DNA of 44,811 bases from Clostridia bacterium (GTDB lineage Bacteria > Bacillota > Clostridia > Christensenellales > Aristaeellaceae), in contig JAFTPN010000001.1 in assembly GCA_017463245.1 (NCBI GenBank), positions 1 to 44,811 on the forward strand. The letters are read 5' to 3'. Below are positions 3,287 to 43,905 of the stretch, in pieces; positions within the stretch are counted from its first letter, which is position 1; each line of letters opens with the position of its first letter. Made by a program: the position numbers and the translations under genes. Under the pieces are notes generated by a model, which was not told where the DNA came from, did no database searches, and was given only the letters and a program-made list of their open reading frames with translations.

Positions 3287-4387
3287 ATGCTGGAACTGGA
3301 ACAGTATGCCCAGGACATCGAAGTGATCCGCAAGTCCCTGCTGGCCGCAGGCGATGCGCTGCACATTGACCACATCAAGGAGCAGATCGACGAGCTGACC
3401 GAGGAAATGAATCAGCCCGAGTTCTGGAACGATGCAGAGCGTTCCGCCAAGGTGAACCAGAAGCTGGGTCAGCTGAAAAACAAGGTGGAGCACTACGAAA
3501 AGCTGCTCTCATCTGCCGATGACATCGAGGTGATGATGGATCTGGCCAAGGAGGAGAACGACCAGGATATGGTGGACGAGGTGGGCGAAGAGCTGCAGCA
3601 CCTCCGCGAGGCCGCCGATGCCCTGGAGCTGGAGACCCTCATGCGCGGCGACTATGACGACAGCCCCGCCATTCTCTCCCTCCACGCCGGTGCTGGCGGC
3701 ACCGAGGCTCAGGACTGGACGCAGATGCTCTACCGCATGTACACCCGCTATTGCGAAAAGATGGGCTTCACCGTGAAGGTGCTGGACTACCTGGACGGCG
3801 ATACCGCTGGCGTGAAGTCCGTGACCTTTGAGGTCAGCGGCGACCATGCCTATGGCTACCTCCGCGGCGAGAAGGGCGTGCACCGCCTGGTGCGCATCTC
3901 CCCCTTCGATGCCAATGCCCGCCGCCAGACCTCCTTCAGCTCCCTGGACGTGTCCCCCATCCTGGAGGACGACGAGGGCGAGATCGAGATCAACATGAAG
4001 GATGTCCGCGTGGACACCTACCATTCCTCCGGCGCTGGCGGCCAGAACGTGAACAAGACCTCCTCCGCCGTGCGTATGACCCACTTCCCCACCGGCATCG
4101 TGGTCGCCTGCCAGACCGAGCGCGACCAGGTGCAAAACCGCGCCACCTGCTTGCGCATGCTGCGCTCCAAGCTCCTGGAACTCCGCGAGCGCGAGAAGGA
4201 ACAGCAGATGGCCGACATCAAGGGCGAAATGAAGAAGATCGAGTGGGGCAGCCAGATCCGCTCCTACGTCTTCCAGCCCTACACCATGGTGAAAGACCAC
4301 CGCACCGGCTTCGAAGTCGGCAACATCGACGACGTGATGAACGGCAACCTGGAAGGCTTTGTGACTTCCTACCTGAAGATGCAATAA
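3287..4387 (+). CDS. prfB: Peptide chain release factor 2 (no programmed frameshift)
   Basis: RF2 recognises UAA and UGA stop codons and triggers peptide release on the ribosome. The SPF tripeptide that distinguishes RF2 is at residues 205-207, and the catalytic GGQ loop is at 251-253. The protein has 366 residues, the normal full length. The usual in-frame UGA after about 25 codons, with its CUU slip site and internal Shine-Dalgarno, is absent. The reading frame runs uninterrupted from the ATG at 3287 (preceded by GAGG) through the N-terminal helices into the core. RF2 synthesis here cannot be autoregulated by +1 frameshifting. Confidence 0.97.
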   Translation: MLELEQYAQDIEVIRKSLLAAGDALHIDHIKEQIDELTEEMNQPEFWNDAERSAKVNQKLGQLKNKVEHYEKLLSSADDIEVMMDLAKEENDQDMVDEVGEELQHLREAADALELETLMRGDYDDSPAILSLHAGAGGTEAQDWTQMLYRMYTRYCEKMGFTVKVLDYLDGDTAGVKSVTFEVSGDHAYGYLRGEKGVHRLVRISPFDANARRQTSFSSLDVSPILEDDEGEIEINMKDVRVDTYHSSGAGGQNVNKTSSAVRMTHFPTGIVVACQTERDQVQNRATCLRMLRSKLLELREREKEQQMADIKGEMKKIEWGSQIRSYVFQPYTMVKDHRTGFEVGNIDDVMNGNLEGFVTSYLKMQ

Positions 4388-38861: not shown

Positions 38862-40157
38862 TTACACCTTGGTCATTTTCATCTTGCGCGCCATCAGCGT
38901 CAGCACCAGCATCACGATGTACAACACGCCAATGGTGATGAACACCGCAGGCCAGCCGAAGGAGTCCTTCACCCAGCCGAACACGCTGGCCTGGATGGCT
39001 GCACCCATGTACACCGCCCAGTCCAGGATGCCCACGATGGTGGAGGAGAAGGCGCGGCCGCCCATGTCGCCAGCCACAGCCCAGATCACGCCGGTGACCA
39101 TGCCGGAGATGCCCACCAGCAGGAGCATCATGGAGGCGGGCGCCTGGCTCTTGATGAAGGGGAAGGCCAGCATGCCGATGAAGGTCACGATGGAGGCCAG
39201 AGCCAGCATGGGTTCGCGCTTGCCCTTGAAGACCTTATCGGTGATGAAGGGGAACACGAACATGGCGCAGGCCTGACCCGCAGGCAGCAGGATGGCGGAG
39301 AAGATGCCCTCCTTGATGGACAGCCCCATGGACTCGGTGAAATAGGTGGGGATCCAGGTCAGCAGGCCGTAGCGGCCAACGCCCGCGATGGCGGAGATCA
39401 GGCAGAACACAATGACCTTGGGCTCGGAGAACAGCACCTTGTAGGGGTAGAGGTAGCCCTTCTTGCTGATCTCGGCTTCCAGGGCGGCGTCACGCTGGGC
39501 GGCCTCCTGGTCGATCTCCTCAAAGGGCTTCAGGCCGATGTCCTCCGGCTTGGTCTTGAAGAACACGGCGAAGGCGATGAGCATCAGCACCATGGGGATC
39601 ATGGGATAGCGGAAGGCGGCGCGCCAGCCCCATTCGGGGTTCAGCTCCATGCAGCCCAGGATGGTCAGGTAGGTCACCACCTGCGCCACGCCGGAGAAGG
39701 CTGTGGCCAGGCCGGAGGCAAAGCCGCGCTTTTCTTTCGGCCACCATTTGTTCAAAACGCCCACGCCGTTGGACCACACCATGGACTGGCAGTAGCCGTT
39801 GAGACCCCACAGCACGGCGATCACCGGGATGGAGTGCTGGAAGGAGATGATCACATTCAGCACGGCAGAGGCCGCCACGCCGAACATCATGAACCGCTTG
39901 TAGCCGAAGAACGCGCCCAGGCGGCCGTTGATCAGCTGGCCGAAGGCATAGCACCAGAACAGCGCCGAGGATACCACGCCCATGGCCGCCGTGGTGGAGC
40001 CAAGCCCCTCGGCCATCTGGGTCAGCACCAGATTGATGTTCTGCCGGCCGTTATAGAAGAACATATAGGTCAGGCCGAAGCTGATGAGCATCTTCCAGGC
40101 GAATTCCTTGAATTTGCTGTACTCCTTGGGGGTATAACCGTAGGTGTGGGAAGTCAT
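38862..40157 (-). CDS. MFS transporter, organophosphate:phosphate antiporter (OPA) family
   Basis: This 431-residue, 12-segment transporter resembles GlpT/UhpT: an N-terminal SFGLTYMFFYNGRQNINLVL segment, NGYCQSMVWSNGVGVLNKWWPKEKRG, and a matched C-terminal half (GRYGLLTWIPTYFTES). Family members swap a sugar- or glycerol-phosphate for inorganic phosphate. The substrate is not predictable here. It lies 17 bases after the nucleotidyltransferase gene with AAGGAGG before the ATG, so both are probably one operon for taking up and activating an organophosphate. Confidence 0.9.
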   Translation of the reverse strand: MTSHTYGYTPKEYSKFKEFAWKMLISFGLTYMFFYNGRQNINLVLTQMAEGLGSTTAAMGVVSSALFWCYAFGQLINGRLGAFFGYKRFMMFGVAASAVLNVIISFQHSIPVIAVLWGLNGYCQSMVWSNGVGVLNKWWPKEKRGFASGLATAFSGVAQVVTYLTILGCMELNPEWGWRAAFRYPMIPMVLMLIAFAVFFKTKPEDIGLKPFEEIDQEAAQRDAALEAEISKKGYLYPYKVLFSEPKVIVFCLISAIAGVGRYGLLTWIPTYFTESMGLSIKEGIFSAILLPAGQACAMFVFPFITDKVFKGKREPMLALASIVTFIGMLAFPFIKSQAPASMMLLLVGISGMVTGVIWAVAGDMGGRAFSSTIVGILDWAVYMGAAIQASVFGWVKDSFGWPAVFITIGVLYIVMLVLTLMARKMKMTKV

Positions 40158-40174: not shown

Positions 40175-40915
40175 TCAGGCGAAGTAGATTGCGTCCTCCT
40201 TGTCGAAGGGCAGGATCTCCGCGGTGACACGGGTGTAGTCGTCCAGGTTGTCGATCTCGTCGATGTAGTAGCCATCGTAGGAGAAGGCGCGGATATTCAG
40301 CGCGGGGAAGATCTCGTTGAGGGCGTTCTCGGCATAGCACTTGTCCTCGCCCTTGTGGATGAACTCCACCACCTTGCCGATCCAGGCGGAAGCGGTGGCC
40401 TTTTCCAGCTTGTAGAAGGGCTGGAAGGCAAAGCAGTCCTCGTCGAAGATCTTGATGGAGACCTCCACCACCTTGCCATCTTTCACGCGGCCCTTGAAGT
40501 CCTTCTCCGGCAGCGCCTTTTTGAAGTTCACGGTGGCGGTGTTCTTCTCCTTGCTGGCCAGCACATCGTGCACCAGGCGGCGGTTGAACACCAGGTCGCC
40601 GTGGAGGAAGATCATATCGTCGTTCATGTATTCGCGCGCCAGGTACATGGAGTAGATATAGTTGGTCTTCATGTAGATATCGTTGCGGACGAAGGTGAAA
40701 TTGGCCTGGGGGAAGTCCGCTGCCTCGGCCTTGAGCTGGTCTTCAAAGGGGCCGGTGGTGACGATAAAGTCCGTCACGCCCTCGGCTACCAGCAGGCGCA
40801 GCTGGCGGTGGAAAATGGTCTCGCCGTTCTTCAGCTTGGCCATGGACTTGTGGTTGTGCTGCGTGAAGGCCTCCATGCGGTTGCCCAGGCCGGAATTAAA
40901 GATAATCGCTTTCAT
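40175..40915 (-). CDS. LicC-like nucleotidyltransferase
   Basis: This 246-residue protein has a single nucleotidyltransferase domain: AIIFNSGLGNRM with the GxGxRM loop, HNHKSM in place of the usual PK motif, NYIYSMYLAREYM, and FLHGDLVF with the metal-binding aspartate. It resembles phosphocholine cytidylyltransferases and related alditol- or phosphonate-activating enzymes. The start at 40915 follows AAGGAG. It heads the minus-strand operon with the OPA transporter and is divergent from an HTH-cytidylyltransferase-like fusion. Confidence 0.82.
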   Translation of the reverse strand: MKAIIFNSGLGNRMEAFTQHNHKSMAKLKNGETIFHRQLRLLVAEGVTDFIVTTGPFEDQLKAEAADFPQANFTFVRNDIYMKTNYIYSMYLAREYMNDDMIFLHGDLVFNRRLVHDVLASKEKNTATVNFKKALPEKDFKGRVKDGKVVEVSIKIFDEDCFAFQPFYKLEKATASAWIGKVVEFIHKGEDKCYAENALNEIFPALNIRAFSYDGYYIDEIDNLDDYTRVTAEILPFDKEDAIYFA

Positions 40916-40962
40916 GTGCGTTGATCTCCTTGAATGCATATTGCTGCGCAAACAGCATAGCC

Positions 40963-41073: not shown

Positions 41074-42015
41074 ATGCCCGTGGGTGCGAATATCAAAAAA
41101 CGGCGGTTTGAGCTGCGGATGTCCCAGCAGGAGCTGGCAGACGCCATGGGGTACAAGACCCGCTCCACCATTGCGAAAATCGAGTCCGGGGAGAACGACG
41201 TGTCCCAGCGGAAGCTGCAGCGCTTTGCGGATGTGCTGGACACCACCGTGGAGGCGCTGATCGCCGGGTATGCCTCTACGCCTACGGTGAACGCCGCGGC
41301 GAAAAGCGCCCCCACCCGGCGCAACAGGAGCGCGGTGCTGATCCTGGCAGGTGGCAAGTCCGGGCGCAACAGGCAGAACATCCCCAGCCAGTTCATCGAC
41401 GTGCATGGCAAGCCGATCCTGGTGCATTGCATGGAGGTATACCAGCGCCACCCGGCGGTGGACGACATTTATGTGGTGTGCCTCAAGGGCTGGGACGGCA
41501 TCGTGAAGGCCTATGCGGATCAGTTTGGCATCACCAAGCTGAAGGGGCTGATCCCTGCGGGCAGCACGGGCATTGCCTCGCTGAAGAACGGCTTTGACCA
41601 CATCCGGGATCGCTATGCCCCCAGGGATGTGATCATCATTCAGGAGTCCACCCGCCCCATGGTGCGGCCGGAGACCATCTCCACCCTGCTCCAGGCCTGC
41701 GAAGAAAAGGGCAGCGCCACCATCTGCCATGCCATGAAGGACTATGTGCAGTTCAACCTCTCCGGCAAAAAGGCGCAGTATGTGAACCGCGATACCTTAG
41801 TGGCGCTGCAGTCCCCGGAGGCGCACCGGCTGTCCCTCCTGCGGGAGGTATTCGACCGGGTGGAGCAGACCCACCACCCGCTGATGGAGTCCTGCTGCGC
41901 GATGCTCTTGTATAATCTGGGGTACGACATCAATTTCATCGAGGGCAGCACCAACAATATCAAGCTGGTGAGAGAGGAGGATCTGGCGGCTTTTGCAGCG
42001 CTGGTGCGAGAGTAA
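41074..42015 (+). CDS. XRE-type HTH fused to a degenerate IspD/TarI-like cytidylyltransferase domain
   Basis: This 313-residue protein has an XRE helix-turn-helix at residues 6-62 (MSQQELADAMGYKTRSTIAKIESGE), a linker, and an IspD/TarI-like domain from about 87. The domain aligns clearly with the enzyme at 34458 (shared YADQFGITKL, NNIKL and others). Active-site positions differ, however. The PKQ lysine is S105 (IPSQF), HDA reads QES (190-192), TPQ reads SPE (247-249), and the second glycine of GxG is lost. R98 and K297 are kept. It is probably a ligand-binding regulator with little or no transferase activity; that is inference. The adjacent operator sites support DNA binding. Confidence 0.85.
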   Translation: MPVGANIKKRRFELRMSQQELADAMGYKTRSTIAKIESGENDVSQRKLQRFADVLDTTVEALIAGYASTPTVNAAAKSAPTRRNRSAVLILAGGKSGRNRQNIPSQFIDVHGKPILVHCMEVYQRHPAVDDIYVVCLKGWDGIVKAYADQFGITKLKGLIPAGSTGIASLKNGFDHIRDRYAPRDVIIIQESTRPMVRPETISTLLQACEEKGSATICHAMKDYVQFNLSGKKAQYVNRDTLVALQSPEAHRLSLLREVFDRVEQTHHPLMESCCAMLLYNLGYDINFIEGSTNNIKLVREEDLAAFAALVRE

Positions 42016-42028
42016 AAACTCATAGGAC

Positions 42029-42057
42029 TTGATTTCTATGCCATTTTGTGGTTTAAT
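42029..42057 (+). promoter_or_regulatory. Promoter of the ribozyme-nagB operon
   Basis: TTGATT (42029-42034), 17 bases, then TTTAAT (42052-42057). Transcription would begin near 42064, leaving about 40 bases 5' of the ribozyme cleavage site. Confidence 0.6.
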
Positions 42058-42100
42058 AGCATATGTAAAACAGCTGCTCCGGAAAGGAGAAGGTGGAGGG

Positions 42101-42340
42101 CTGTTAGCGCCAGGCTCGGCTGCGGGCATCGGGCTTTGCTGCTGCCGGAACGATGAAGGTTCCGGCGGGGAGCAGGAAAGCGGCGGTGATCGCGGCATGG
42201 GTGACGAGGATTGGCAGTTGTCGAAAGACTCGGCGGATGCTGCCACGGCTGGGGTGTGCAGGGGCATGCCCATCGGTGAGCCGACAGAGAGAAAGCAAAA
42301 AGCGGAATCCAACACCGCAACAGAGGTTCTCTTGCCACTG
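42101..42340 (+). ncRNA. glmS-type self-cleaving ribozyme upstream of nagB
   Basis: This RNA cleaves itself when glucosamine-6-phosphate binds, which lowers expression of the gene behind it. The conserved core is clear. AGCGCC is at 42106-42111, with the expected cut between A42106 and G42107. GGGTGACGAGG is at 42199-42209, followed by GGCAG-TTGTCGA...CGGCGGATG-CTGCC (42213-42244), where GGCAG/CTGCC forms the core helix. A CGGCT/AGCCG stem follows (42246-42282), then a purine-rich ACAGAGAGAAAGC stretch. A peripheral hairpin GCCGGAAC/GTTCCGGC is at 42144-42166. The 3' limit is approximate. The next gene is nagB, not glmS. Confidence 0.9.
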
Positions 42341-42350
42341 AAAAAAGCAT

Positions 42351-42373
42351 ATGTGTTTCTATTGGAAACACAT
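42351..42373 (+). other. Perfect hairpin between ribozyme and nagB
   Basis: The nine-base arms ATGTGTTTC and GAAACACAT enclose a 5-base loop. No T-run follows, so it is not a standard terminator. It lies in the 3' cleavage product and might affect that RNA's stability. The remaining bases to 42430 show nothing else. Confidence 0.5.
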
Positions 42374-42445
42374 GGGAGGCCTTCATCCGCTGGCGGGAGA
42401 AGGTCTGTGGCTTTGTGCAGTTAAGAATAGAGGAGGCTTATCAAC

Positions 42446-43237
42446 ATGAGAGTTGTTATTCAGGAAGATTATAGCAGAATGTGCCAGTGGGCAGCGAACT
42501 ATATCGCGGCCAAGATCAATGGTCACAAGGAGGATCGTCCCTTTGTGCTGGGTCTGCCCACGGGCAGCTCCCCCATCGGCGTTTACAAGGAGCTGATCCG
42601 CAAGAACAAGGCGGGCGAGGTTTCCTTTGCCAATGTGGTGACCTTCAACATGGACGAATACCTGGGCCTGCCCAAGGATCACGATCAAAGCTACTGGTAC
42701 TTCATGCACGACAATTTCTTCAACCACCTGGTGGACATGAAGCCGGAGAACATCAACATTCTCAACGGCATGACGGATGATCCCGAGGGCGAATGCGCAC
42801 GCTATGAGGAGAAGATCGCCTCCTACGGCGGCATCGACCTGTTCATGGGCGGCATTGGCGTGGATGGCCACATCGCCTTCAACGAGCCCTTCACCAGCCT
42901 TTCCTCCCGCACCGGCCTGCGGGCGCTGACCACCGATACCCGCATTGTGAACAGCCGCTTCTTCGGCAACGATCCGGAGAAGGTGCCTGCCATGGCGCTG
43001 TCTGTGGGTGTGGGCACGGTGACCGATTCCAAGGAAGTGCTGATCCTCATCAACGGCCACAACAAGGCTCGCGCCCTGGCCGCCACGGTGGAGGGCAATG
43101 TGAGCCACAAGTGGACCTGCTCTGCCCTGCAGATGCACAATGGCGCCATCATCGCCTGCGATGAGGCTGCCTGCGGCGAGCTGACCGTGGACACCTACAA
43201 GTATTTCCTGGACATTGAAAAGAAGGAGCGTCTGTAA
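42446..43237 (+). CDS. nagB: Glucosamine-6-phosphate deaminase (possible biosynthetic role)
   Basis: NagB interconverts glucosamine-6-phosphate and fructose-6-phosphate plus ammonia. The 263-residue protein keeps the catalytic residues D70 (NMDEYLGL), D140, H142 and E147 ([11 protein letters not shown]), plus the phosphate loop [16 protein letters not shown] precedes the ATG at 42446. It is preceded by a GlcN6P-sensing ribozyme and followed by GlmU-type acetyltransferase and glmM genes. That context suits GlcN6P synthesis better than amino-sugar breakdown, where nagA and sugar uptake genes would be expected. Direction of flux is inference. Confidence 0.93.
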
Positions 43238-43239
43238 GG

Positions 43240-43905
43240 ATGTATACGATCGCCGATCTTTATGATCTGGAGCATACGCTTGCCAAGGACTATCTTTCCC
43301 AGTTCACCTATCCCTGGGAGGCGCTGAAGGGCATCAAGGATATGATCATCGCCCTAGGCGCCAAGCTGGATCCGGAAGAGTATGTGGAGCGGGAACCCCA
43401 GGTGTGGGTGCATAAGACTGCCAAGGTCTTCCCCACGGCTTATCTGGGTGCGCCCTGCATCATCGGCCCCAACACGGAGGTGCGCCATTGCGCGTTCATC
43501 CGCGGCAGCGCCCTGGTGGGTGCCGACTGCGTGGTGGGCAACAGCGTGGAGCTGAAGAACGTGATCCTCTTCGACCATGTGCAGACGCCCCACTACAACT
43601 ACGTGGGCGACTCCATCCTGGGCTATTACAGCCACATGGGCGCGGGCTCCATCACCTCCAACGTCAAGTCCGACAAGACGCTGGTGGTCGTCCGCGACGG
43701 CACCGAGAAGATCGAGACCGGGCTGAAGAAGTTTGGCGCCATGCTGGGCAACTATGTGGAGGTCGGCTGCAACTCCGTGCTGAATCCCGGCACGGTGGTG
43801 GGCTGCAACAGCAATGTGTACCCCACCTCCTGCGTGCGGGGCGTGGTGCCTGCCAATTCCATCTGGAAGAATAACGGCGAAGTCATCCACAAGGAGGAAC
43901 GCTAA
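43240..43905 (+). CDS. GlmU-type left-handed beta-helix acetyltransferase (no uridylyltransferase domain)
   Basis: This 221-residue protein has a short helical start and then hexapeptide-repeat coils from about residue 50. HYNYVGDSILGYYSHMGAGS resembles the GlmU C-terminal active-site block (histidine, YxGD, GAG), so acetylation of glucosamine-1-phosphate is likely. The N-terminal nucleotidyltransferase half of standard GlmU is missing. The UDP-transfer step must be done by another protein or elsewhere. It starts two bases after nagB and is followed by glmM after one base. Confidence 0.85.
   Translation: MYTIADLYDLEHTLAKDYLSQFTYPWEALKGIKDMIIALGAKLDPEEYVEREPQVWVHKTAKVFPTAYLGAPCIIGPNTEVRHCAFIRGSALVGADCVVGNSVELKNVILFDHVQTPHYNYVGDSILGYYSHMGAGSITSNVKSDKTLVVVRDGTEKIETGLKKFGAMLGNYVEVGCNSVLNPGTVVGCNSNVYPTSCVRGVVPANSIWKNNGEVIHKEER

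Follow-up and report, generated by a model that had tools for sequence, protein, structure and literature searches.

The glmS ribozyme is the textbook example of one RNA for one gene. McCown et al., in 2011, are said to have found nearly all known glmS ribozymes in glmS mRNAs. In Bacillus subtilis, according to excerpts of PMC6171935, GlcN6P-driven cleavage reduces glmS expression, and the data suggest that GlmR stimulates GlmS. For NagB (glucosamine-6-phosphate deaminase), excerpts of PMC4281351 list seven residues of the GlcNAc6P site of the Escherichia coli enzyme, among them S151, R158 and K160, and describe the Giardia lamblia enzyme as anabolic and indifferent to GlcNAc6P, with a Km of 19–23 mM for ammonium, and Gram-positive NagBs without a known activator as catabolic. 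The NagB of Akkermansia muciniphila, by the excerpted text of PMC5902328, shows no GlcN6P synthesis at physiological conditions (Km 41.3 mM for NH4 and 5.5 mM for Fru6P) and is not activated by GlcNAc6P, and the organism, which lacks GlmS, requires GlcNAc. In view of the Akkermansia and Gram-positive enzymes, loss of the GlcNAc6P site is therefore no mark of an anabolic NagB. The Giardia enzyme is the precedent for an aminating NagB, and the Akkermansia enzyme is a strong counter-precedent.

Here we analysed a window of 44,811 nucleotides, the whole of contig JAFTPN010000001.1 of a Clostridia bacterium (Aristaeellaceae), in which nagB stands behind a glmS-class ribozyme. We propose that this NagB probably synthesizes GlcN6P from ammonia, with product feedback exerted via the ribozyme leader. 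The glmS ribozyme class, the NagB family and an anabolic NagB have each been described; in the open-access literature searched we found no report of a glmS ribozyme before nagB, or of a clade in which nagB is its main target.

The ribozyme leader and the putative nagB operon

A search with the covariance model RF00234 gave a match at 42168–42343 of the forward strand (41.1 bits, gathering score 37, E 2.3e-6), the sole match in this 2.7-Mb genome. Reading the sequence, we found AGCGCC upstream of the match, GACGAGG at 42203–42209 and CGGCGGATG at 42231–42239 (Table 1). CGCC at 42108–42111 is complementary to GGCG at 42232–42235, as in the P2.2 pseudoknot, whereas AAAGCGGC, placed at the cleavage site in the Rfam alignment, lacks this complementarity. 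The 91-nt stretch between AGCGCC and GACGAGG is filled by a single long hairpin, an 89-nt P1 (−53.9 kcal/mol over the 97 nt folded). Rfam missed the AGCGCC at 42106 because of the length of this hairpin, and we dropped its 5′ boundary at 42168, which lies inside a stem, in favour of the AGCGCC, which fits both P2.2 and P1. The window RNA thus has the cleavage-site motif, P1, GACGAGG and the P2.2 pseudoknot of the class. On the pattern of the described glmS ribozymes, the predicted scissile bond is A42106/G42107.

The 3′ end of the ribozyme lies 102 nt from the start of nagB; the position upstream of glmS/GFAT is usual, though not defining, for RF00234 and is not the one found here. The window nagB scores above the TIGR00502 equivalog cut-off and is the only match to that profile in its genome. 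Three claims of an earlier note made from this DNA held, namely the glmS ribozyme match, the AGCGCC as the likely cleavage site and a NagB with all catalytic residues (see below) as the product of the gene behind it. A promoter scan of 41950–42460 returned no site that passed its rule. On the minus strand, a terminator-like hairpin with a T-run lies at 42351–42373, between the ribozyme and nagB.

The two genes downstream were assigned with scores below the cut-offs of their profiles. For the putative left-handed beta-helix (LbH) acyltransferase, the TIGR03992 match spans only profile positions 212–393 (cut-off 292.1 bits), and the profile searches returned no nucleotidyltransferase match in this protein; GlmM, truncated by the contig end, falls short of the TIGR01455 cut-off of 447.55. 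The same leader and gene order were found in another genome of the genus (G064), with a NagB 97% identical to that of the window. Upstream of the ribozyme (41074–42015, plus strand) lies a gene for an XRE-type helix-turn-helix fused to an IspD-like nucleotidyltransferase, a 94% identical copy of which occupies the same position in G064. Further upstream, on the minus strand, a gene for a MobA-like nucleotidyltransferase (40175–40951) adjoins one for an MFS transporter (38862–40157; best NCBIfam match TIGR00881, below cut-off).

Table 1. Features of the putative nagB operon and its leader in the window
Feature	Position	Strand	Basis
AGCGCC, predicted self-cleavage A42106/G42107; CGCC pairs with 42232–42235 (P2.2)	42106..42111	+	Sequence; layout in 49/49 model hits
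Expanded P1 hairpin	42114..42202	+	Folding, z −4.70; length comparison over model hits
glmS ribozyme core: GACGAGG, P2a/P2b, P2.2 partner 42232–42235, P3, P4	42203..42343	+	RF00234; covariation in relatives
GAGGAGG, likely ribosome-binding site, 9 nt 5′ of nagB start	42430..42436	+	Read from sequence
nagB, 263 aa, glucosamine-6-phosphate deaminase family	42446..43237	+	TIGR00502 378.9 bits, cut-off 236.9
LbH acyltransferase, C-terminal GlmU-like	43240..43905	+	TIGR03992 139.1 bits; Pfam Hexapep
glmM, phosphoglucosamine mutase, cut by contig end	43907..44811	+	TIGR01455 354.3 bits, profile 1–298/442

Recurrence, covariation and gene order

As a baseline we took 391 genomes of the window's class and called the first of five query genes on the strand of each ribozyme. 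RF00234 matched in 148 genomes, with 150 matches in total and 149 without that of the window. GFAT was the gene called for 143 of these 149 (141 by tblastn and two at contig edges by eye), and the others preceded nagB (two), LbH-glmM (one) or none of the genes (three). Both nagB cases, G509 and G386, are genomes placed under other families. The match in G386 is weak (30.1 bits, below the gathering score) and stands before an early-ending nagB, followed, as judged by eye, by a transposase-like ORF. Two genomes of the sample carry two glmS ribozymes each, G406 (C39:2273–2521 and 3851–4098) and G549 (on two contigs).

Within the family, 20 of 200 sampled genomes had an RF00234 match under stricter filters, and the first gene behind the ribozyme among those tested (NagB, LbH, GlmM and GFAT) was nagB in nine, LbH in four and GFAT in five. 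Of the remaining two ribozymes, one meets a contig end (L014) and one, in G005, has none of the tested genes behind it. The latter (L104, 6603–6723), in a genome listed as 100% complete, follows glmM; with no GFAT in that genome at 1e-60, it is apparently an orphan. Ribozyme-nagB is thus a recurrent exception, concentrated in the family of the window.

A covariance model, R1, was built from 19 family sequences (alignment A2) and matched 49 of 100 loci, made up of 10 of 20 regions from family genomes, some of which had also supplied training sequences for R1, and 39 of 80 named loci recruited by NagB protein, two of which (L128 and L168) duplicate family-sample regions. When the 39 named-locus genomes picked by their R1 hit were re-checked with RF00234, all 39 matched, 38 of them above the cut-off. 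All 49 hits have the order AGCGCC, P1 helix, GACGAGG, with 14–21 nt between the two motifs in 46 and 59–92 nt in three, of which two come from the genus of the window and the third from G013. Covariation was analysed in 32 ribozymes of nagB loci. The rest of the 49 were set aside, ten on account of their length (seven by a 175-nt limit and three by hand), the three with a long P1, two that duplicate other loci and two whose locus has no nagB. On a hand-written structure, 96.3% of cells were paired and 16 of 29 pairs had changed on both sides. The double-change cells numbered 108, against a mean of 30.9 in shuffled alignments (none of 500 as high) and 9–24 in a control with the partners slid. 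The P2.2 pairing was present and invariant in all 32, and is therefore uninformative for covariation either way. In the mixed 19-sequence set, which includes the window, double changes were found in 16 of 20 predicted pairs.

A relic or a chance match without function would agree with a window score just 4 bits over the gathering score and with the ribozyme of G005, but it is scarcely credible given the covariation and the invariant core across the class (the window itself, with its long P1, stands outside the 32-row alignment); moreover, the low score is associated, at least partly, with the long P1.

The ribozyme and this NagB occur together at 47 loci, including two pairs of identical DNA and thus 45 distinct loci. 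The order behind the ribozyme was nagB first in 36, LbH-nagB in seven, LbH-glmM-nagB in three and glmM-nagB in one. At five loci (L124, L130, L154, L159 and L166) the sequence downstream of the ribozyme contains nagB but gave no match to LbH, GlmM or GFAT (2.1 kb examined for L159, 6.0 kb for each of the other four), indicating that nagB itself is a target. These counts bear on the idea that the ribozyme serves glmM and the acyltransferase, with nagB as a catabolic bystander in the same operon. Ribozyme-LbH-glmM loci without nagB do exist (L105, the same as L010, and L342, with 2.8 kb examined), and 11 of the 47 loci start with LbH or glmM. However, nagB is first in the other 36 and dispenses with glm genes, within the sequence examined, in the five loci above, which makes a passenger role for nagB quite improbable.

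GlcN6P synthesis by NagB would agree better with the company that the gene keeps. Within the locus sequence examined, GFAT lies on the same strand as nagB at 6 of 98 nagB loci (L118, L126, L151, L171, L173 and L181), and nagA occurs at none of the 49 loci with a ribozyme and at 5 of the 51 that lack one. In L137 the order is ribozyme-nagB-YvcK/GlmR (TIGR01826, 268.2 bits). G226 is the one named-locus genome, out of 39, with two ribozymes: the first stands before nagB (C22:2945–3098, L159) and the second 33 nt before GFAT (C11:26064–26215, L357); the latter reads AACGAGG in place of GACGAGG. GlmM, the acyltransferase, the GFAT at six loci, the paired ribozymes of G226 and the YvcK/GlmR of L137 all belong to synthesis. 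These neighbours also bear on a switch in which NagB lowers GlcN6P and GlcN6P lowers NagB, committing the cell either to breakdown of amino sugars or to wall synthesis. Such mutual inhibition is what one would expect of a deaminase behind a glmS ribozyme, and the NagB family is mostly catabolic according to excerpts of PMC4281351, but we hold a switch of this kind to be very improbable with glmM and the acyltransferase in the same cluster, and with GFAT in the cluster at six loci, where a deaminase would create a futile cycle.

The carriers of ribozyme-nagB are a group of bacteria of the gut, in most cases of the rumen. Among them is Ruminococcaceae bacterium P7 (L142, G215), which NCBI files under Clostridia. 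It has the locus ribozyme-nagB-LbH-glmM and two GFAT genes that both lack a ribozyme, and gave no match to nagA. Its record carries no MAG tag, and we take P7 to be a cultured rumen strain, in which case this locus would make the hypothesis directly testable.

The NagB protein and the GFAT and nagA inventory

The best-scoring solved chain for the window NagB was 7lqm, 60% identical over 258 aligned residues, and its numbering, assumed equal to that of E. coli, is used here. D72, D141, H143, E148, R172 and K208, which we take to be the catalytic residues, are kept in all 99 aligned NagBs, including that of the window. The changes S151T, R158G and K160R in the GlcNAc6P allosteric site are present in 96 of the 99, the window NagB among them, which is therefore not of the E. 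coli allosteric type; the three NagBs without these changes come from Spirochaetales loci. The same changes occur in stand-alone and nagA-linked NagBs of the clade, and we discarded the idea that they set the ribozyme group apart, since they span the whole clade except those three loci. The residue changes therefore mark the clade and not the ribozyme, and are weak evidence on the direction of the enzyme, because catabolic NagBs without GlcNAc6P activation exist. In a quick tree with modest support, 47 of 48 ribozyme rows clustered in a group of 72 rows (drawn open, support 88), and a 24-row group (support 85) held four of the five nagA-linked rows and no ribozyme row.

The earlier note had nagB standing in place of glmS. 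This was wrong for the window genome, which has a complete GFAT elsewhere (787.7 bits, profile 1–607), with no ribozyme of its own. The genome also has nagA (259.4 bits), and the window NagB may also serve GlcNAc breakdown.

We then compared 49 distinct ribozyme-nagB genomes (12 of the family sample and 39 of the named loci, minus two duplicates), whose nagB DNA showed no additional identical or near-identical pairs; the genome-level search covered 50 of the 80 named loci, all 39 with the ribozyme and 11 without. GFAT was over the cut-off in 38 genomes (in G203, G210, G216 and G220 the best match is without the N-terminal part of the profile), present as fragments only in two (G223 and G230), and absent or matched by partial domains only in nine. 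NagA was matched in 19 of the 38, one of the two and eight of the nine respectively, counting as present G207 and G214, where it fell below the HMM cut-off; the difference between GFAT-less and GFAT-bearing genomes gave a Fisher p of 0.059, with genomes that are not independent. Each absence call depends on a single HMM and on draft assemblies, with a nagA threshold of 1e-10.

Replacement of GlmS by NagB in the absence of glmS is thus ruled out by the GFAT of the window genome and of 37 others of the 49, in which NagB is dispensable as an entry. Eight of the nine GFAT-less genomes have nagA, so GlcNAc salvage is possible there and synthesis by NagB is not proven; in G201 neither GFAT nor nagA was matched, and in a genome of this kind NagB would, if our proposal is right, be the sole entry. 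In the family sample GFAT was missing at E 1e-60 in 83 of 200 genomes (35 of the 103 good ones), for which widespread loss, salvage dependence and assembly gaps are candidate causes. It was missing in 18 of 47 genomes with the long NagB form and 65 of 153 without, no more than expected by chance, and in only 3 of the 12 ribozyme-nagB genomes. Absence of GFAT was accordingly dropped as decisive for synthesis by NagB.

The inventory bears on a further possibility, that NagB operates close to equilibrium, in either direction, while the ribozyme does no more than adjust the enzyme level. At low GlcN6P the enzyme would then synthesize from ammonia, and incoming amino sugars would be returned to glycolysis, with synthesis a side role. 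The reaction is reversible according to excerpts of PMC4281351 and PMC5902328, the active site is unchanged, and the window genome has nagA with its single TIGR00502 nagB. Shut-off at high GlcN6P, however, would block precisely the catabolic half, and 19 of the 49 ribozyme-nagB genomes combine a GFAT above the cut-off with the lack of any nagA match at 1e-10; we therefore consider this rather unlikely. In those 19 genomes a deaminase would be of little use except in a futile cycle, unless free glucosamine is imported.

Product feedback on NagB and the described systems

A leader that destroys its message at high GlcN6P is sensible for a maker of GlcN6P and has the wrong sign for a remover, so that the feedback logic of the earlier note, by which the ribozyme makes sense only if NagB makes GlcN6P, holds and is strengthened by the gene order at 45 distinct loci. 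Of its proposed NagB-based entry into amino-sugar synthesis, the ribozyme-nagB pairing and this logic stood and the replacement of GlmS fell, with the aminating direction of NagB a probable reading. In the mechanism that we propose, the glmS-class ribozyme would be the 5′ leader of an operon, presumably read as one message, in which nagB is followed by the GlmU-C-like acyltransferase gene and glmM. Abundant GlcN6P, the likely ligand, would bind the leader and bring about cleavage at A42106/G42107, and the message would be lost, as for B. subtilis glmS. As a second entry alongside GFAT that spares glutamine, NagB would run mainly from Fru6P and NH4+ to GlcN6P, and GlmM and the putative acyltransferase of the same message would pull the reaction forward.

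We give about an even chance to the wider proposal that wall amino sugar derives directly from free ammonium in a clade of gut and rumen bacteria, with a glutamine-independent NagB, its GlcNAc6P site remodelled, and the ribozyme moved from GFAT to NagB; a search for a published figure for rumen ammonium found none. If NagB aminates, ammonia assimilation would be joined directly to wall synthesis, in parallel with the ammonia- and glutamine-dependent enzyme pairs of other pathways. A recurrent second target with the opposite textbook function would also mean that the logic of a regulator predicts the direction of an enzyme.

Among the described systems, A. muciniphila resembles the GFAT-less genomes in that NagB is the sole candidate for the step between Fru6P and GlcN6P; unlike the window, no ribozyme is mentioned for it in the excerpts of PMC5902328. 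The G. lamblia NagB makes GlcN6P and is insensitive to GlcNAc6P, and in the clade of the window the corresponding site is remodelled, as judged from sequence alone. The Giardia enzyme is, however, eukaryotic, a monomer, dimer or tetramer, and the excerpts of PMC4281351 mention no ribozyme. With the hexameric E. coli-type NagB (TIGR00502) the window NagB shares its length, active-site residues, Y121 and Y254, and differs in S151T, R158G and K160R, its biosynthetic neighbours and its ribozyme leader. Finally, the RNA has the same core, P1, P2a, P2.2, P3, P4 and 5′ leader position as the glmS ribozyme of Gram-positive glmS mRNAs (RF00234), but its target is nagB, or a glm operon holding it, instead of glmS, and P1 is expanded to ~90 nt in the window and in the two other ribozyme-bearing genomes of its genus.
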